Shown: one piece after another, positions 9,648 to 18,597 of the stretch
Layout: every line of letters begins with the position of its first letter
Numbering within the stretch: position 1 is the stretch's first letter
Source: Sphaerobacteraceae bacterium
GTDB taxonomy: Bacteria; Chloroflexota; Chloroflexia; Thermomicrobiales; Thermomicrobiaceae
Direction: 5' to 3'
Length of the DNA stretch: 40,178 nucleotides
Assembly: GCA_007695115.1 (NCBI GenBank)
Contig: REEK01000087.1
Coordinates: forward strand, 1 to 40,178
Notes under the pieces: model-generated
Database searches by the model: none
What the model was told of the DNA's origin: nothing
What the model saw: the letters and a program-made list of their open reading frames with translations, nothing else
Program-made: the position numbers and the translations under genes

Positions 9648-10481
9648 GTGAGCAATGTGAAACAGGTATTCGCGATGCGTGACGACTCTCGTTCTCGACA
9701 TTCAGTTCAGTCAGTTGAACGGGCGTTTGCTGTCCTGCGGTCGTTTACCGCGGAACGGCCGGTGCAGGGTGTCTCGGAAATCGCCTCGGCGCTGGACCTG
9801 AATCGCACCACGGTTCACCGATTGCTCGCCACGCTGGAGAGTTGCGGCGCGGTTCGAAGAGATCCGATCTCTCACCGGTACACGATAAGCGCTGGGGTTC
9901 TGCAGTTCGCCAACGTGTTTCATCAGACCAGCAACGTTCGAGACATCGCCCATCAGGCGATGGTTCGCCTGCGGGACGAGACAGGACAGACCGCCGCCCT
10001 GCATCTGCGTGAGGGGTTCGAGCGGGTGACGATCTCGCAGGTCGAATCCAATCAGGATCTGCGGATGACCTATCGAGACCTTGGCGTTCCGCAGCCGCTG
10101 CATCTGGGAGCCCCCGGCAAGGCGATCCTTGCCCATCTCTGTGAGGATGAAATCGAGGAGTACCTTTCCCGCCGTCATCTGGTGGCCTTTACCGAGAATT
10201 CGATTACCAATCCCGCGTTGATCCGTGCACAGCTGGAAAAGATCGTTCACCGCGGGATCAGCGTGAGTCGGGAAGAGCGACGCCCCGGTGTGGTTTCTGT
10301 GGCGGCGCCGGTCTTCAACGATGCCGGTCAGGTGATCGGGGCGATGAATATCTGCGGCCCGGTACATCGTGTCAGCGAGGAGCAGATCGAGCAGATCATC
10401 CCGCTGGTTCGTGAGGCCGCCCGCGAGACCTCCCGTCGTCTCGGCTGGATCGAGAGTCCTGTGGCAGAGACGGCCGACTAG
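9648..10481 (+). CDS. IclR-family transcriptional regulator
   Basis: This regulator has an N-terminal winged helix-turn-helix (about residues 20-85, with SVERAFAVLRSF, GVSEIASALDLNRTTVHRLL and the wing SHRYTIS). The C-terminal IclR effector-binding domain covers about residues 95-270 (RDIAHQAMVRLRDETGQTAALH, LGAPGKAILAHL, RPGVVSVAAPVF). IclR proteins usually control a nearby catabolic operon in response to a small carboxylate. Candidates here are the aminotransferase just upstream and the hydrolase/aldolase cluster. The start is uncertain. GTG 9648 lies almost at the predicted transcription start, while ATG 9675 has a weak AGG eight bases upstream. The gene ends eight nt before the first copy of a 57-58 bp direct repeat. 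Confidence 0.93.
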   Translation: MSNVKQVFAMRDDSRSRHSVQSVERAFAVLRSFTAERPVQGVSEIASALDLNRTTVHRLLATLESCGAVRRDPISHRYTISAGVLQFANVFHQTSNVRDIAHQAMVRLRDETGQTAALHLREGFERVTISQVESNQDLRMTYRDLGVPQPLHLGAPGKAILAHLCEDEIEEYLSRRHLVAFTENSITNPALIRAQLEKIVHRGISVSREERRPGVVSVAAPVFNDAGQVIGAMNICGPVHRVSEEQIEQIIPLVREAARETSRRLGWIESPVAETAD

Positions 10482-10488
10482 GCGCTTT

Positions 10489-10545
10489 GCTCTCCCCCGC
10501 CCCCTCGTCTTGACGAAACCCGCATTCTGCGCGACAAAAGGCATC
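10489..10545. repeat. 57-58 bp direct repeat, copy A
   Basis: From GCTCTCCCCCGCCCC through to AAAAGGCATC, this segment recurs almost exactly at 11247-11304, which has one extra C in the C-run. It holds the palindrome TCGTC-TT-GACGA (10505-10516). Copy A begins 8 nt after the iclR stop. The two copies bracket a two-gene cassette. On the minus strand both copies read as the same short peptide, which is a consequence of the repeat and not evidence of a gene. Confidence 0.9.
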
Positions 10546-10645
10546 TCCGATTGGCCCACAAAACTCGACGTTTCGCTGAGGTGGCCAGCGAGGACGATCT
10601 TGCGCCTTCTGGCCCCCGGCTAAGCAGGTAGACGTAGAATGTAAA

Positions 10646-10855
10646 ATGTCTGATAAAGATATCGAGAAGCTGATTCGTCAGGTGCGGCGCTCCGAAGGCT
10701 GGAGAGTTGAGCGTGATTCTAAACATTACAAGCTCTTCGCTCCCGACGGAGTAACGATCATCACTGTTTCTGTAACTCCATCCAGTCCCAACGTGATCAA
10801 GAAGGTCCGATCCCAATTGCGTCGTGCTGGACTGGATCTGGAAGGCGCTGACTAA
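10646..10855 (+). CDS. Small HicA-like protein (69 aa), putative toxin of a two-gene cassette
   Basis: The 69-residue protein has the order and length of the HicA dsRBD-like fold. An N-terminal helix (DKDIEKLIRQVRRSEGW) is followed by a strand leading into RDSKHYKLFAP, with His27 at the place of the catalytic HicA histidine. A further strand (TIITVSVTP) and a C-terminal helix (NVIKKVRSQLRRAGLDL) complete it. HicA toxins are mRNA interferases, but here the usual GSH is SKH, and a nuclease role is only inferred. The ATG has no good ribosome site; TAGAAT (10635-10640) lies five bases upstream, so the mRNA could be leaderless. The stop overlaps the next start (TAATG). The whole pair lies between the two direct-repeat copies. 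Confidence 0.62.
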   Translation: MSDKDIEKLIRQVRRSEGWRVERDSKHYKLFAPDGVTIITVSVTPSSPNVIKKVRSQLRRAGLDLEGAD

Positions 10856-11175
10856 TGTGGAACCTGGAAGTAACTGTAACCATAGCGTCGGCCCGGGATC
10901 TTGATCATCTCGGCTCATATGCCGGGGAACTGCTTGATGAGTTGGAACTCATTGCCGGTAATGCTGCACCGGTCGTGACCGGCCACTATACGGAGCCGAT
11001 CTCAACACTCGTCGTCAATATCGATATCGCAACTGAAGACCCCACCATTGCGGTTTCCGAGGCTCTTCAACTGATCAAGCAAGCCGCTGAACGTGCGAAC
11101 GTGCCGCTTGGCAGTGAGAGAACGATTTCTCTGAGCGTCCTTGACGATCTCCCAAACACTCCACTGCATGTGTAG
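10855..11175 (+). CDS. Unrecognised 106-aa partner of the HicA-like protein, putative antitoxin
   Basis: I do not recognise this family. The sequence suggests a compact alpha/beta protein: a strand (LEVTVTIA), a helix (DLDHLGSYAGELLDELELI), two strands (VVTGHYT and TLVVNIDIA), a long helix (IAVSEALQLIKQAAERANV) and a last strand (TISLSVL). The order is strand-helix-strand-strand-helix-strand, a ferredoxin-like arrangement. It is acidic, with no helix-turn-helix visible. It does not look like the canonical HicB encoded at 18137. Its ATG overlaps the stop of the HicA-like gene as TAATG, a coupling typical of toxin-antitoxin pairs. An antitoxin role is therefore plausible but rests on context alone. 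Confidence 0.5.
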   Translation: MWNLEVTVTIASARDLDHLGSYAGELLDELELIAGNAAPVVTGHYTEPISTLVVNIDIATEDPTIAVSEALQLIKQAAERANVPLGSERTISLSVLDDLPNTPLHV

Positions 11176-11246
11176 GTCTGGCCGGTATGCAGTATCCAGT
11201 GTTCGACCTCATGGCTTGCACCGGAAAGAGCGACAGTCTGCTGAAG

Positions 11247-11304
11247 GCTCTCCCCCCGCCCCCTCGTCTTGACGAAACCCGCATTCTGCGCGACAAAAGG
11301 CATC
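11247..11304. repeat. 57-58 bp direct repeat, copy B
   Basis: This is the second copy of the repeat at 10489-10545, in the same orientation, with six Cs in the run where copy A has five. It ends 12 nt before the ribosome-site region of the first BNR gene. It therefore sits exactly between the HicA-like cassette and that gene. Confidence 0.9.
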
Positions 11305-11329
11305 GATGGATTGTTTGAGAGGAGCATCG

Positions 11330-14300
11330 ATGTCTACATCAAATGACGAACGCATCTCACTCGATGATGCGCTGCTGGAGCGGCTCGACTGGCGACTGAT
11401 TGGCCCGCATCGTGGTGGCCGTGTCGTGGCCGTTGCCGGACACCCGACCGAAACCGGGACGTTTTACTTCGGTGCCTGTGCCGGTGGTGTCTGGAAAACC
11501 ACCGACGGCGGGAACACCTGGGAGAACATCTCCGACGGTTTCTTCAACACCGCGGCGGTCGGCGCGCTGGCCGTTTCCCAGTCCGATCCGAATGTAATCT
11601 ACGTCGGCACTGGCGAGACCTCGATCCGGGGGAACGTTTCCCACGGCGATGGTGTCTACAAATCGACCGATGCCGGCCGGACCTGGACGCACTGTGGCCT
11701 GAACGACACCCACGCGATCGGCCGGATGCGGATTCACCCGACGAACCCGGACGTCGTCTACGTTGCGGCACTCGGTCACGTCTGGGGACCGAACTCGGAA
11801 CGCGGGATCTTCCGATCCATTGATGGTGGAGAGACCTGGGAGCACGTTCTCTTCCAGAGTGAGGACGCCGGGGCGTTCGATCTCTCGATGGATACCAGCA
11901 ACCCACGACTGCTCTATGCCACTACCTGGCAAGCTCGGCGCTATCCGTACAGAATGACCTCCGGTGGCCCGGGAAGCGGAATCTTCCGATCGCGTGATGG
12001 TGGAGATACCTGGGACGAGATCTCCCGGAACAAGGGTCTGCCCGAAGGAACCCTCGGCAAGATCGGTATCGCTGCATCGCCAGCGAAACCGGGTCGAGTC
12101 TGGGCGCTGGTAGAAGCGACTGACGGCGCGATGTTCCGGTCAGATGACTACGGAGAGACCTGGCAGCGACTCAGCGAGAGCGCCGATCTCCGACGCCGTG
12201 CCTGGTACTACACCCATGTCTACGCCGATCCGGTCGATCCCGATACGGTCTGGGTGCTGAATCTCCGGAACTGGAAATCGATTGACGGCGGCAACACATT
12301 CTCGATGGTGCCGACCCCGCACGGCGACAATCACGCCATCTGGATCGATCCGAACGACACGAACCGCCTGATTCACGGCAACGATGGTGGCGCCTGTGTC
12401 TCCTACAACGGGGGGCTTTCCTGGTCGACCCTTCTGAATCAGCCAACCGCGCAGTTCTACCACGTGACTGCAGACAACCAGCATCCCTATCGGGTCTACG
12501 GATCGCAGCAGGACAACACCGCGATGTCGGTGCCCAGCGAGTCGGCCCGTGGCGCAGTCATCCCGCTGGAATGGTTCGAGCCGGGTGGTGGTGAGAGTGG
12601 CTACATCGCGGTTCGCCCGGACAATCCGGATGTGATGTATGCCGGTGCGATCGGCAGTGGTCCCGGCAATGGCCGTATGACACGCTTCGACCGCTCGACC
12701 GGGCAGACCCAGCTGATTCACGTCTGGCCGGAGGTGACCGGCATGGGTGTCGGTGCGCAGGACCTGAAATACCGGTTCCAGTGGACCTTCCCCATTGAGC
12801 TGTCGCCACACAACCCGGACGTGCTTTATGTCACGTCAAACGTCGTGCATCGCTCGACCGATGAGGGCATGTCCTGGGAAGATATTTCTCCGGACCTCTC
12901 CCGCGCCGAGCCACACATGCTGGAGCCGTCCGGTGGAGAGATCACCTGGGATAACACCGGTGCCGAGGCCTACGGCACGATCTTCGCATTCCGGGAGTCG
13001 CCGCACACGAAGGGGCTGCTCTGGGCCGGGACCGATGATGGCCTGGTCCACGTTTCCCATGACAACGGCGAAAACTGGGAGAACATCACCCCGGCCGATC
13101 TGCCGGACTGGGCGCTGATCAGCATTCTGGAGCCAAGTCCCCACGATGCCGGGACCGTCTACGTAGCCGCAACGCGATACAAGATGGACGATTTTGCCCC
13201 GTATCTCTACAAGACATCCGACTACGGCAAATCGTGGACGAAGATCGTTAACGGTATCCCGGAGGACGATTTCACCCGCACGATCCGCGAGGACGTGAAG
13301 CGCAAGGGTCTGCTCTTTGCCGGAACCGAGTCCGGTATCTATGTCTCCTACGATGATGGCGTCAACTGGCGGCGGATGGGCGGAAACCTGCCAGTGGTGC
13401 CAATTCACGACCTGATCATCAAGGACGATGACATGGTGGTGGCGACGCACGGCCGATCGTTCTGGATTCTGGACGACATCCAGCCATTGCGCGAGATGAC
13501 GGACCAGATCCGGAGCAAATCGATCCATCTGTTCGAGCCACCGGCGGTCAGTCGCTTCAAATACTACGGTCGCTGGGGTGACGATGGCCGACCGGCGGTC
13601 AGCTATGGTCGATTCGGCGGCTGGGTCAACGCTCATCGACAGACCACCGACACCTATGGCCAGCCAACCCAGGAGTTCTTCGATGCTGGCAAGAACCCGT
13701 CGGGCGGTGTGCCGTTCCACTACTACCTTGCAGCGGCTCCTGAGGGCGATGTCACGATCGAGGTGCTCGGCAAGGGCGGCGACGTTATCCGGTCGTTCTC
13801 CAGTGCCGACGAGAAAGCCAACGGTCGGAAGGTCACGAAGATCGTCGGGATGAACCGGTTTATCTGGGATATGCGCTATCCGGGAGCGAAATCGGTCGAG
13901 GGCCACAACATGCAGAGTGACTCACTGGCCGGCCCGATCGCGATGCCGGGCGAGTATCAGGTACGGGTGACGGTTGGCGACCACTCCGAGACCCAGGCGA
14001 TCACGATCCATAAGGATCAGCGGATTTCCGCCAGTGACGACGATTTGCAGGCGCAGTTCGATCTGCTGGCGCAGGTTCGGGACAAGCTCTCGGAGACCCA
14101 CGAGGCCGTTCTGCAGACCCGTTCGCTACGAGATCAGATCACTGGCTGGAAAGATCGGGCAGACAACCTGCGGATCACTGGCGCGGCCGATGAATTGACG
14201 AAGAAGCTGACCGAGATCGAAGAAGTGCTGATTCAGCCGAAGGCGTCGAGCTCGCTCGGCTATCCGGGTGGACTGAACGACAAGCTCGGAGCCCTGCCAC

Positions 14301-14473
14301 TCCTCATCGGGCACTCCGATACTCGCCCAACGAAGCAGCAGTATCAGGTGTTCGAGAAGCTCAGCGGTGAAGTCGATGCGCAGCTTGGGAAGCTGAACGC
14401 GCTGATGGAACAGGACGTGCCGCAATTTCAGAAGGCACTGGAAGAAGCCGGTGTCCCGGCAGTGAAGGTATAG
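11330..14473 (+). CDS. Giant BNR/Asp-box (VPS10/sialidase-like) beta-propeller protein, copy 1 (1047 aa)
   Basis: The first 700 or so residues are packed with Asp-box repeats of the form S-x-D-x-G-x-T-W (STDAGRTW, SIDGGETW, SRDGGDTW, SDDYGETW, STDEGMSW, SHDNGENW, TSDYGKSW, SYDDGVNW). This indicates one or two sortilin/VPS10-like beta-propellers. The segment HGRSFWILDDIQPL closes the propeller. After it come an Ig-like region (GVPFHYYL... to about residue 880) and a helical C-terminal region of about 150 residues. Such proteins are often annotated as glycosyl hydrolases, but I see no sialidase catalytic set. No signal peptide or membrane anchor is visible at the N-terminus. The start at 11330 has GAGAGGAGC upstream; an ATG at 11306 lies at the repeat edge. 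A close paralogue follows. Confidence 0.86.
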   Translation: MSTSNDERISLDDALLERLDWRLIGPHRGGRVVAVAGHPTETGTFYFGACAGGVWKTTDGGNTWENISDGFFNTAAVGALAVSQSDPNVIYVGTGETSIRGNVSHGDGVYKSTDAGRTWTHCGLNDTHAIGRMRIHPTNPDVVYVAALGHVWGPNSERGIFRSIDGGETWEHVLFQSEDAGAFDLSMDTSNPRLLYATTWQARRYPYRMTSGGPGSGIFRSRDGGDTWDEISRNKGLPEGTLGKIGIAASPAKPGRVWALVEATDGAMFRSDDYGETWQRLSESADLRRRAWYYTHVYADPVDPDTVWVLNLRNWKSIDGGNTFSMVPTPHGDNHAIWIDPNDTNRLIHGNDGGACVSYNGGLSWSTLLNQPTAQFYHVTADNQHPYRVYGSQQDNTAMSVPSESARGAVIPLEWFEPGGGESGYIAVRPDNPDVMYAGAIGSGPGNGRMTRFDRSTGQTQLIHVWPEVTGMGVGAQDLKYRFQWTFPIELSPHNPDVLYVTSNVVHRSTDEGMSWEDISPDLSRAEPHMLEPSGGEITWDNTGAEAYGTIFAFRESPHTKGLLWAGTDDGLVHVSHDNGENWENITPADLPDWALISILEPSPHDAGTVYVAATRYKMDDFAPYLYKTSDYGKSWTKIVNGIPEDDFTRTIREDVKRKGLLFAGTESGIYVSYDDGVNWRRMGGNLPVVPIHDLIIKDDDMVVATHGRSFWILDDIQPLREMTDQIRSKSIHLFEPPAVSRFKYYGRWGDDGRPAVSYGRFGGWVNAHRQTTDTYGQPTQEFFDAGKNPSGGVPFHYYLAAAPEGDVTIEVLGKGGDVIRSFSSADEKANGRKVTKIVGMNRFIWDMRYPGAKSVEGHNMQSDSLAGPIAMPGEYQVRVTVGDHSETQAITIHKDQRISASDDDLQAQFDLLAQVRDKLSETHEAVLQTRSLRDQITGWKDRADNLRITGAADELTKKLTEIEEVLIQPKASSSLGYPGGLNDKLGALPLLIGHSDTRPTKQQYQVFEKLSGEVDAQLGKLNALMEQDVPQFQKALEEAGVPAVKV

Positions 14474-14586: not shown

Positions 14587-17500
14587 ATGTCCAACCCGAA
14601 AGATACGGTACTGAGTAATCTCAAATGGAGGCCGATCGGGCCATTCCGTGGCGGACGTGTTGTCGCGGTGGCTGGCGATCCGGTCAACGATCAGGTCTTC
14701 TACTTCGGCTCCACCGGTGGTGGTGTCTGGAAGACCGAAGACGGCGGCGAATACTGGCGCTGTGTATCACACGGCTACTTCAAGCGAGCCTCCGTCGGTG
14801 CGCTGCAGGTGGCGCCGTCTGATCCAAACGTCATCTATGCCGGTATGGGCGAATCGACGATTCGAGGCAACGTCACCCACGGTGATGGTGTCTACAAATC
14901 GACCGACGCCGGCAAGACCTGGCACCATCTGGGTCTGACCGAAACCCGCAACATCTCCGAGATCGCCATTCATCCGGATAACCCGGATGTGGTCTACGTT
15001 GCGGCGCTGGGCCATGCGTTCGGCAAGAACAACGAGCGCGGCGTCTATCGCACCACCAACGGTGGCTGGACCTGGGAACAGGTTCTCTTCAAGAGCAACA
15101 AAGCCGGTGCCATCGACATCTCGATGGATCCGAACAACCCGCGTATTCTCTATGCCTCGATCTGGGAGGCATATCGCAGCCCCCACAGCATGAGCTCGGG
15201 TGGCGAGGATTCCGGTATCTACAAGTCGACCAACGGTGGCGACACCTGGATCGAAATTACCCGGAAGAATGGCCTGCCGAAGGGAATCCTCGGCAAGGTT
15301 GGCCTGGCAGTCTCTCCAGCGCAGAGTGATCGCGTCTGGGCAATCGTCGAGGCTGAAGATGGCGCGGTTTTCCGCTCCGATGATGGCGGAGACAACTGGA
15401 TTCGCCTGAGTGAAGACCGCAACCTGCGCCAGCGTGCCTGGTACTACCATCACATCATTGCTGATCCACAGGATCCGGAGACGGTCTACGTGCTCAACGT
15501 GGAGATGTGGAAGTCCACTGATGGTGGCAAGAACTTCGGCAAGATGTCGACGCCGCATCCGGACAACCACGATCTCTGGATCGATCCGAAGAACCCGCAG
15601 CGCATGGTTCAGGGCAACGACGGCGGCGGTACCGTGTCCTTCAACGGAGGCGCCTCGTGGTCGACGGTTTACAATCAGATGACGATGGAGTTCTACCACG
15701 TCACCACGGACAACCGGTTCCCGTACCGCGTCTATGGTGCCCAGCAGGACAACTCCACGCTGAGCACGGTGAGTCGCTCCAACTATGCCGCGATCACCAG
15801 CCGTGAGACGGTTGATGTCGGTGGTGGCGAGAGCGGATATATCGCGGTTCGGCCGGACAATCCGGACATCATTTTCGCTGGTAGCTATGGCGGGCTGATC
15901 ACCCGGTACGACATGAAGACCGGGCAGGCCAAGCCGATCAACGTCTGGCCGGAAGTCACGCTCGGCTGGCCGGCGAAGGACATGAAGTACCGCTTCCAGT
16001 GGACCTTCCCGATCGTCATCTCCCCGCATGATCCGGACACCCTCTTCGTGGGTGGCAATCATGTCTTCAAGTCGACCGACGAGGGGCAGTCATGGGAAGC
16101 GATCAGTGATGATCTCACCCGGGCCGAGCCACACACGCTGGAGGCATCCGGCGGGCCGATCACCAAGGACAGCACCGGCGCCGAGACCTACGCGACGGTC
16201 TTCTCCTTCGCTGAATCGCCGCTGAAGAAGGACCTCTACTGGGTCGGCACCGATGACGGACTGATTCACATCACCCGTAACGGTGGCAAGAAGTGGGAGA
16301 ACATCACCCCACCAGATTTGCCGGAGTTCTCGCTGATCAGCATCATCGAGGCCTCGCCACACGATGAGAAGACCGCCTACGTAGCGGCCACCCGGTACAA
16401 GTCGGACGATTTTGCGCCGTACCTGTACAAGACCAGCGACTACGGCAAGAACTGGACGCGCATCACCAACGGAATTGAGCCGGACCACTTCACCCGTGTT
16501 ATCCGCGAGGATCCGGCGAAGAAGGGTCTGCTCTACGCCGGAACCGAGGTCGGCATCTACGTTTCCTTCGATGATGGAGCCAACTGGGAACGCATGACCG
16601 GTAACCTGCCGGTAGTGCCGATTCACGACTTCGTGATCAAGGACGACGATCTGGTGGTTGGCACGCACGGTCGCTCGTTCTGGATTCTGGACGATCTGAC
16701 CGGTGTCCGTGAACTGGCGAATCTCGCCGAGGACACGAAATCGCATCTCTTCGACCTGCGTGATCCGGTTCGCTTCCGGACATCACGGAGTTTCGGACTC
16801 GATGCGCCGGGCAGCAAGAACTTCCACCGCATCGCTGGCGAGATGGCTACCTACGTCACCGAGACCAACGCCGAGGGAGAGCCGGAGACGATTCTCCTCG
16901 ACGCCGGTGAGAACCCGCCCGATGGTGTGCAGTTCAACTACTACCTGAAGGACAAGCCTGAGGGACAGATCAACCTGCAGATTCTGGACGGTAATGGCAA
17001 CGAGGTTCGCCGATTCGTCAGCAAGGATGAAGACGCGAAGGAAGAGCCACCGGTTCAGGGTGAGTTCCGTGACCCGAACATCCCGAAGAAGGCGGGCGTC
17101 AACCGCTTCGTCTGGGACATGCGTCACAAGGGTGCTTCCGACCTGCCGCATGATGCCTCGATGGGCATGATGCGCGGGGCGATGGCTGGACCGCTCGCGG
17201 TTCCCGGCAAGTACAAGGTCAAGCTGTCAGTCGGTGATCAGGAGCACACCCGTGAGTTCGAGCTTCTGCCCGATCCGCGAGTCGATGTCCCCCAGAAGGA
17301 GCTTGAAGAGCAACTCGACCTCTCGCTCAAGGTTCGCGACAAGCTCACCGAGACGCATGAGGCGATCAAGCGGGCTCGTCGAGTACGTGCCCAGATCGAT
17401 ACCTGGACCGAGCGGTTCAAGGATCGCAAGGGTGGCGACCAGATCGTCGAGGCTGGCGAGAAGATGAAGGAACGCGTCAGCGAGGTCGAAGGTGTCCTGA

Positions 17501-17754
17501 CCCAGGTCAAGGCCAAGAGCCTGCAGGACATTCTCAACTTCCCGACGATGCTCAACGCCAAGATCGGCGGCCTGATGGGCGCGATCGGTGCCGCAGACGG
17601 CGCACCGACGAAGCAGTCCTACGACGTGTTCGAAGACCTCTCCAAGCGCGTCGATGAGCAGATCAAGAAGCTCGACGAAGTCCTCAAGCAGGACGCGAAG
17701 GACCTCAACAAGATGATCGACAAGCAGGGTGTGGAGCCGGTCTCGATCGACTAG
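14587..17754 (+). CDS. Giant BNR/Asp-box (VPS10/sialidase-like) beta-propeller protein, copy 2 (1055 aa)
   Basis: A paralogue of the preceding gene, collinear over nearly its whole length. The N-terminal match is WRPIGPFRGGRVVAVAGDP. Asp boxes include STDAGKTW, STNGGDTW, SDDGGDNW, STDEGQSW, TSDYGKNW and SFDDGANW. The propeller closes at HGRSFWILDDL, and an Ig-like part (GVQFNYYL and NRFVWDMRH) follows. A charged helical C-terminal region (about residues 900-1055) is rich in Lys/Glu and likely forms a coiled coil. As with copy 1 no signal peptide is seen, so location is uncertain. The ATG at 14587 is preceded by AGGAAGGGAAC. The ligand or substrate is unknown. Tandem duplication is evident, and each copy is followed closely by a hairpin repeat. 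Confidence 0.86.
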   Translation: MSNPKDTVLSNLKWRPIGPFRGGRVVAVAGDPVNDQVFYFGSTGGGVWKTEDGGEYWRCVSHGYFKRASVGALQVAPSDPNVIYAGMGESTIRGNVTHGDGVYKSTDAGKTWHHLGLTETRNISEIAIHPDNPDVVYVAALGHAFGKNNERGVYRTTNGGWTWEQVLFKSNKAGAIDISMDPNNPRILYASIWEAYRSPHSMSSGGEDSGIYKSTNGGDTWIEITRKNGLPKGILGKVGLAVSPAQSDRVWAIVEAEDGAVFRSDDGGDNWIRLSEDRNLRQRAWYYHHIIADPQDPETVYVLNVEMWKSTDGGKNFGKMSTPHPDNHDLWIDPKNPQRMVQGNDGGGTVSFNGGASWSTVYNQMTMEFYHVTTDNRFPYRVYGAQQDNSTLSTVSRSNYAAITSRETVDVGGGESGYIAVRPDNPDIIFAGSYGGLITRYDMKTGQAKPINVWPEVTLGWPAKDMKYRFQWTFPIVISPHDPDTLFVGGNHVFKSTDEGQSWEAISDDLTRAEPHTLEASGGPITKDSTGAETYATVFSFAESPLKKDLYWVGTDDGLIHITRNGGKKWENITPPDLPEFSLISIIEASPHDEKTAYVAATRYKSDDFAPYLYKTSDYGKNWTRITNGIEPDHFTRVIREDPAKKGLLYAGTEVGIYVSFDDGANWERMTGNLPVVPIHDFVIKDDDLVVGTHGRSFWILDDLTGVRELANLAEDTKSHLFDLRDPVRFRTSRSFGLDAPGSKNFHRIAGEMATYVTETNAEGEPETILLDAGENPPDGVQFNYYLKDKPEGQINLQILDGNGNEVRRFVSKDEDAKEEPPVQGEFRDPNIPKKAGVNRFVWDMRHKGASDLPHDASMGMMRGAMAGPLAVPGKYKVKLSVGDQEHTREFELLPDPRVDVPQKELEEQLDLSLKVRDKLTETHEAIKRARRVRAQIDTWTERFKDRKGGDQIVEAGEKMKERVSEVEGVLTQVKAKSLQDILNFPTMLNAKIGGLMGAIGAADGAPTKQSYDVFEDLSKRVDEQIKKLDEVLKQDAKDLNKMIDKQGVEPVSID

Positions 17755-18136: not shown

Positions 18137-18370
18137 ATGGCTCGAACATATCAAGTGCTACTCGAATGGGATCCCGACGACAAAGTCTGGGTCACCTACG
18201 TGCCACATCTGGATTTCCTGTCCACGTTCGGCGACACGCGAGAGGAAGCGCTGGAACATACGCGTGAGGCGATCCTGCTCTATCTCGAAGGTCTAGAGGA
18301 ACACGAACTCGAAACGTACCCCAACGGGACACATGCGGAACTCGTTGAGGTGGAAGTCCCTGCCTCGTGA
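18137..18370 (+). CDS. hicB: HicB-family antitoxin
   Basis: The 77-residue protein matches the short HicB type with a partial RNase H-like fold: an opening strand (TYQVLLEWDPDDKVWVTYVPHL), the GDTREEALEHTREAILLYLEGL helix, and a short C-terminal tail without a DNA-binding domain. HicB binds and neutralises the HicA mRNA interferase. The ATG is preceded by GGAAGGA. Its stop overlaps the next start as GTGA, so toxin synthesis is coupled to antitoxin synthesis. The order antitoxin-toxin is the reverse of the classical hicAB order but is common for this pairing. It lacks a long C-terminal HTH/RHH domain, so autorepression would need another factor or the complex. Confidence 0.88.
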   Translation: MARTYQVLLEWDPDDKVWVTYVPHLDFLSTFGDTREEALEHTREAILLYLEGLEEHELETYPNGTHAELVEVEVPAS

Positions 18371-18597
18371 GTCGCCTCCCCAGGGTGAGCGGCCGAGAAA
18401 CCGTTCGGGCACTTGAACGCGCCGGATTTGTTGTGTCTCGCCAGCGTGGTAGTCATGTGCGTCTCTTTCGTGCGGGTGTTGGGCAGGTGATTGTTCCCCT
18501 TCATGGGAATCGCGACATCCCGGCCGGAACCCTTCGGAACATTCTCCGACAGGCGAACCTCAGCGTGGATGAGTTTATCGAGTTGCTTGAGGGCTAG
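18367..18597 (+). CDS. hicA: HicA-family toxin (mRNA interferase)
   Basis: The 76-residue protein is a typical HicA with a dsRBD-like fold: helix SGRETVRALERAGF, strand VVSRQRGSHVRLF with the catalytic His30 in GSH, strand VIVPLHGNRDIPAGT, and helix LRNILRQANLSVDEFIELL. HicA cleaves mRNA independently of codon position and inhibits growth until bound by HicB. It starts at the GTG at 18367, which overlaps the hicB stop by 4 nt. All key residues are present, so it is probably functional. It is followed by a MITE-like repeat. Confidence 0.92.
   Translation: MSRLPRVSGRETVRALERAGFVVSRQRGSHVRLFRAGVGQVIVPLHGNRDIPAGTLRNILRQANLSVDEFIELLEG

Follow-up and report, generated by a model that had tools for sequence, protein, structure and literature searches.

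Between an IclR-type regulator gene and a BNR/sortilin-type gene of a Sphaerobacteraceae bacterium, the stretch of DNA analyzed here (40,178 nt, referred to as the window) carries two small genes enclosed by a direct repeat (Table 1). What kind of module do these genes form, and how did they come to lie at this site? A preliminary description had tentatively seen in them a toxin-antitoxin-like module of a HicA-like protein with an antitoxin of a new type, bracketed by near-exact direct repeats of 57/58 bp. The repeat is present as described, with one extra C in the right copy, located in a run upstream of a part that is identical without gaps over 52 nt (10494–10545 versus 11253–11304). When up to three mismatches were allowed, a 40-nt core of the repeat matched the window twice, against 0.00 matches expected, and the full repeat has two copies in the whole assembly (3.68 Mb, 186 contigs), a third match being a 17-nt chance match. 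A genome-wide repeat or regulon element was rejected on the basis of these two copies and of the core motif TTGAC-N8-CATTCTGCGCGA, exact copies of which occur only at this locus.

Table 1. Features of the inserted gene pair and its surroundings (window coordinates)
Feature	Positions	Strand	Remarks
iclR-type regulator, left neighbour, outside the module	9648–10481	+	Pfam IclR_C 1.7e-41, HTH_IclR 4.4e-17
Left direct-repeat copy	10489–10545	+	57 nt; duplicate of the BNR-gene upstream region
Inserted DNA between the repeats	10546–11246		701 nt, absent from the empty site of G002; 758–759 nt with one repeat copy
HicA-like putative RNase toxin gene	10646–10855	+	69 aa; conserved H27 in SKH
Putative antitoxin gene, no DNA-binding domain	10855–11175	+	106 aa, acidic, predicted β-α-β-β-α-β
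Right direct-repeat copy	11247–11304	+	58 nt; native upstream region of the BNR gene; conserved CTTGACG-N7-CATTCTGCGCGA-N-AA-N2-GGCAT
BNR/sortilin-type gene, right neighbour, outside the module	11330–14473	+	Sortilin-Vps10 1.6e-31, BNR 1.2e-11

Since the conserved element of the right copy is kept 5' of the BNR orthologue in three related genomes (G002, G003 and G004), we regard the right copy as native and the left copy as its duplicate. A scan for the sigma-70 consensus and for terminators gave no results, and in particular no standard sigma-70 promoter in the left or the right copy. The duplicated BNR upstream element may nevertheless act as a promoter; the left copy might provide the module with one, while the right copy would keep the BNR gene served. 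The start of the BNR gene, previously placed at 11306, most likely lies at 11330, where GAGAGGAG is followed by ATG, an arrangement conserved in relatives. This gene is the first of two BNR/sortilin-type genes in tandem (the second at 14587–17754), which encode about 1050 aa each, share 56% mutual identity; the genome encodes at least four more paralogues.

The order of genes without the cassette is seen in G002, a genome of the same genus whose IclR is 98% identical: iclR is followed by a single repeat and the BNR gene (L014, 6523–6620). Given this empty site with one repeat, the window carries an insertion composed of the cassette and one repeat copy. The preliminary description had suggested looking for just such a locus, and the single-repeat site bears out its proposal that the pair moved or inserted as a unit between the two genes. 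The GC content of the inserted DNA is 53.5%, compared to 58.9% for the window and 60.6% and 60.8% for the neighbouring genes. A single, recent insertion placed the pair between iclR and the BNR gene, and the BNR upstream element was duplicated. With a filled site in one genome and an empty one in a close relative, the locus offers a clear-cut example of a recently acquired module and a long duplication of its target.

Among 200 relatives, the 106-aa partner was found in one, G003 (48% identity), a Thermomicrobiaceae metagenome-assembled genome of the same genus, which also encodes the HicA-like protein (76% identity). There, on contig SKTL01000095.1, kbl lies on one side of the pair and a DUF2283 gene on the other; the same BNR gene follows about 1.2 kb further downstream, and no repeat flanks the pair. 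The repeats therefore belong to the insertion site in the window and not to the module. The pair without repeats in a related genome is an outcome that the preliminary description had named as speaking against its proposal, but the insertion in the window still stands. That repeat and cassette were wrongly joined during assembly is highly improbable: the assembly is a draft, and the insertion occurs in one genome only, but both flanks are unique, no other contig carries the empty site or the repeat, and the pair is intact in G003.

Neither terminal inverted repeats nor a recombinase gene were seen in the insert, and an IS-like element was rejected, as the insert lacks a transposase/recombinase ORF and terminal inverted repeats. 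The insertion step would be best explained by a circular intermediate or by recombination assisted by sequence homology. We tentatively consider that the direct repeat arose in this manner instead of through a transposition-like target duplication, from a donor in which this BNR gene was already preceded by the pair, as in G003. Both known occurrences of the pair in the genus are upstream of this gene and in the same orientation, and a target-site duplication of 57–58 nt would be long, in addition to the lack of recombinase and terminal inverted repeats. On the other hand, a DUF2283 gene and a DUF998 gene separate the pair from the BNR gene in G003, where no repeat surrounds it. Moreover, the two copies in the window, identical over 52 nt, differ from the sequences in G002 and G003, so that both copies probably derive from the window's own lineage. 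Recombination of this kind bears solely on how the pair was inserted and does not conflict with a toxin-antitoxin function.

The two genes overlap by one base in TAATG, in agreement with the translational coupling proposed earlier, and the same one-base overlap is found in G003 (L006, 1966–2175 and 2175–2501). Between the window and G003, both genes exhibit an excess of third-position changes, with pN/pS values of 0.20 and 0.24. As third-position changes dominate at these ratios, both frames are real genes under purifying selection, and spurious ORFs were rejected on the same grounds.

The 69-aa protein (P0001) is HicA-like, as the preliminary description had recognized: it matches the PADLOC HicA-like profile PDLC02910 over its full length (E 1.7e-15; residues 2–61 on profile positions 5–61 of 61), its G003 homologue matches the same profile (E 8.2e-16), and P0001 also matches the phage families phrog_2089 (2.7e-11) and phrog_2053. 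With the Pfam HicA family (PF07927), P0001 scores 15.8 bits, under the curated cut-off of 27, which a related Streptomyces protein (L086) reaches with 27.3 bits. Its H27 is nearly invariant among 13 homologues and aligns with the GSH of a canonical HicA encoded elsewhere in the window. The protein is basic (14 K+R, 10 D+E). A PDB sequence search with P0001 returned no results, and it did not align with Adephagia gp91, a toxic HicA-like phage protein. By family membership, P0001 would adopt a dsRBD-type fold with a catalytic histidine, and its sequence suggests that it may be a toxin; LeBron gp82, a HicA-like phage protein, is non-toxic on over-expression (PMC13148394).

HicA-like domains of this sort were also encountered in other arrangements. 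A single 171-aa frame in a Chloroflexota genome (L077 in G361, 1480–1995) combines a HicA-like domain (5.1e-11) with a part that, on visual inspection, resembles a winged-helix DNA-binding domain, a fusion that does not appear in the list of known HicA fusions consulted. Members of the same HicA-like subfamily in Microbacterium and Gordonia phages (L080, L081) are flanked by genes on the opposite strand, and no recognizable partner lies downstream of them.

The 106-aa partner (P0002) is strongly acidic (16 D+E, 4 K+R). It matched no family in Pfam, NCBIfam, PHROGs or PADLOC, with two PHROG rows at E 0.11 and 0.45, and no Pfam family even at E up to 10. An AlphaFold2 model built from a two-sequence alignment (pLDDT 70) shows a ferredoxin-like β-α-β-β-α-β arrangement, the same order of elements that had been read from the sequence beforehand. 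Among the Foldseek and VIA matches listed, only the common ferredoxin-like arrangement recurs, with Z values of at most 8.6 (1j27, rmsd 3.0, 94 aligned) and no indication of function; a HicB structure is absent from these listed matches, which proves nothing. A tblastn search of phages and plasmids with the partner and scans of genomes and viral contigs gave no results, and one further scan led to the G003 contig only. Weak phylum-wide matches to the partner profile were taken as chance (best E 0.0035 outside the query's own genome, mostly inside long open frames).

HicB has a partial RNase H fold of the order β-β-β-α-β (PMC10865869). P0002 matched neither of the HicB profiles PF15919 and PF05534, its predicted topology differs, and profile comparisons revealed no similarity to the HicB encoded in the window or to Adephagia gp90. 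An ordinary HicB was rejected on the basis of the missing profile match and the differing predicted topology, in line with the earlier suspicion that the partner is unlike HicB. Because these two defining HicB features were tested and neither was found, we do not file the pair as HicAB.

The pair nonetheless resembles class 1 HicAB modules, in which a small hicA is followed by a small hicB without a DNA-binding domain (Gerdes 2024, PMC10865869): the HicA-like gene comes first, the second partner is small and devoid of a DNA-binding domain, and the genes overlap in a compact arrangement. It departs from them in the predicted partner fold and in the lack of a HicB profile match. About 7 kb from the cassette, the window contains a canonical module, with HicB (18137–18370; PF15919, 4.3e-6) preceding HicA (18367–18597; PF07927, 73.9 bits) and a 4-nt overlap. 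This module (18137–18597) shares small overlapping genes and the HicA histidine with the pair, but it has a true HicB, to which the partner shows no similarity, and the reversed gene order (hicB-hicA). For the HicA-/HicB-like pair gp91/gp90 of Adephagia, toxicity and rescue have been shown (PMC11373665). It, too, joins a HicA-like toxin of about 70 aa to a small partner; however, the antitoxin gene comes first there, and neither protein aligns with the pair in the window.

Relatives of the partner came to light on Streptomyces plasmids. One of these (L079) carries a HicA-like gene followed by a gene for a 267-aa protein whose N-terminal part shows a similar pattern, and a search with the N-domain of this protein retrieved seven further Streptomyces plasmids and four virus contigs. 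A HicA-like gene is located directly upstream in all 11 loci found via the partner domain, with a copy that looks frame-damaged in L093. In these relatives, the partner consists of the N-domain and a DNA-binding HTH (HTH_17, 1e-7 in L093). Structure prediction of the relatives covered virus-contig partners, and the L092 model (pLDDT 86) shows the β-α-β-β-α-β order followed by HTH helices. In L093 (a virus contig; 1711–1940), the HicA-like gene seems to run out of frame before its last third, so that this contig may have retained the partner but no functional toxin.

In a profile-profile comparison, in which the window side was a two-sequence alignment, the window partner family matched the twelve N-domains over residues 1–84 (P 5.6e-5, probability 66). 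The score of 30.2 compares with a maximum of 20.3 in 400 column shuffles and 14.0 for the reversed profile, a control that cannot separate homology from shared fold because shuffling destroys the order of secondary structure. The constant pairing with the same HicA-like subfamily separates the two in part. P0002 could instead be an independent ferredoxin-like protein that came to follow a HicA-like gene by convergence. This is in keeping with the lack of any BLASTP match, with the moderate profile match and with the generic, very common nature of the ferredoxin-like fold. We nevertheless judge convergence to be quite unlikely, given that the gene order with the same HicA-like subfamily recurs in 11 of 11 loci found via the partner, that the profile alignment is full-length and collinear, and that the predicted elements follow the same order with similar lengths. 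Homology of P0002 to the Streptomyces N-domain is thus supported, though not proved, by these sequence comparisons, and P0002 looks like a stand-alone version of this N-domain, which in Streptomyces plasmids and in viruses is part of a larger HicA partner. Of the new antitoxin type put forward in the preliminary description, the non-HicB nature of the partner holds up, while the type is not unique to the locus.

A system of a related layout is listed in PADLOC as the phage-defence candidate PDC-M06, in which a HicA-like protein (PDC-M06A) is accompanied by a partner with an HTH (PDC-M06B). In PDC-M06 and its Streptomyces plasmid and virus relatives, as in the window, a HicA-like gene is followed by the same kind of N-terminal domain. 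The PDC-M06B model matches the Streptomyces-type partners (3.1e-6, 1.2e-4 and 0.0064), mostly over the HTH part, and PDC-M06A matches P0001 weakly (0.0033, 0.029). These matches suggest that the wider kind is probably already listed as a phage-defence candidate. The window partner differs in having 106 aa, without the HTH or the C-terminal part, and neither P0002 nor P0003 matched PDC-M06B. Within the collection of papers searched, none mentioned PDC-M06.

Taken together, we suggest that the pair is probably a compact toxin-antitoxin module in which a HicA-type toxin is matched by a ferredoxin-like antitoxin that is not a HicB and lacks a DNA-binding domain. It has traits of type II systems, i.e. 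two small genes with a one-base overlap, an empty site in a relative and a patchy, mobile distribution (one of 200 relatives). In such a module, the HicA-like RNase would be made first and cut RNA; the acidic partner would be translated from the same mRNA via the one-base stop/start coupling, and would bind and block the RNase through its ferredoxin-like domain. We propose such a neutralization of P0001 by P0002, and the cellular purpose could be defence or self-maintenance. Autorepression is probably absent, since the DNA-binding domain of the relatives is missing here, as in class 1 and 2 HicAB modules (PMC10865869).

The missing HTH and C-terminal part could also mean that a two-domain antitoxin has decayed or been domesticated, leaving a pair with an RNA-binding or regulatory role and no working toxin-antitoxin function, as the weak Pfam HicA score of P0001 might likewise indicate. 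We consider this unlikely, as two species carry intact copies of both genes, which are under purifying selection, H27 is kept, and small antitoxins free of DNA-binding domains are common in class 1 and 2 HicA modules (PMC10865869). The toxin-antitoxin module that we favour would belong to a known kind of system, as a variant that has received little study and for which PADLOC already lists a candidate relative.

HicA and HicB have been described as a strictly exclusive pair (PMC2701414). A catalogue of 14 HicA contexts from 2024 lists HicA with a partial-RNase-H HicB, viperin or SMC (PMC10865869), and a partner of the fold predicted in the window is absent from these published contexts; a literature search for non-HicB partners of HicA returned no results. 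It is conceivable, and we propose with some reserve, that HicA-type RNase toxins are paired with a HicB-unrelated, ferredoxin-fold antitoxin in a separate branch that extends from Thermomicrobia to Streptomyces plasmids and viruses. This class would be missing from the 14 contexts and run counter to the rule of HicB as the sole partner of HicA, and the module in the window would have been captured via a duplicated neighbour element that serves as a ready-made promoter. If so, a HicA-type toxin can swap its antidote, like RelE and PIN toxins, and the anonymous candidate PDC-M06 would gain a mechanism. The stand-alone partner presents the presumed toxin-binding domain isolated at 106 residues, which would make co-expression and structural work simple.

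The surroundings of the BNR gene vary among the relatives. It follows iclR in the window genome and in G002, and the kbl gene of the window genome lies on another contig. In the kbl-BNR interval of G004, a DUF4258-like gene and a DUF2283 gene (L103, 1254–1762) occupy the place where G003 has the pair, which is followed there by its DUF2283 gene (L006, 1966–2786); DUF2283 is thus kept and the presumed toxin swapped. A literature search on DUF2283/DUF4258 pairs returned no results. Judging from the contents of the interval in G003 and G004, toxin-antitoxin-like genes enter and leave the region upstream of the BNR gene, which suggests that the kbl-BNR interval is a toxin-exchange spot and that DUF2283 is possibly linked in function to the HicA-like pair.
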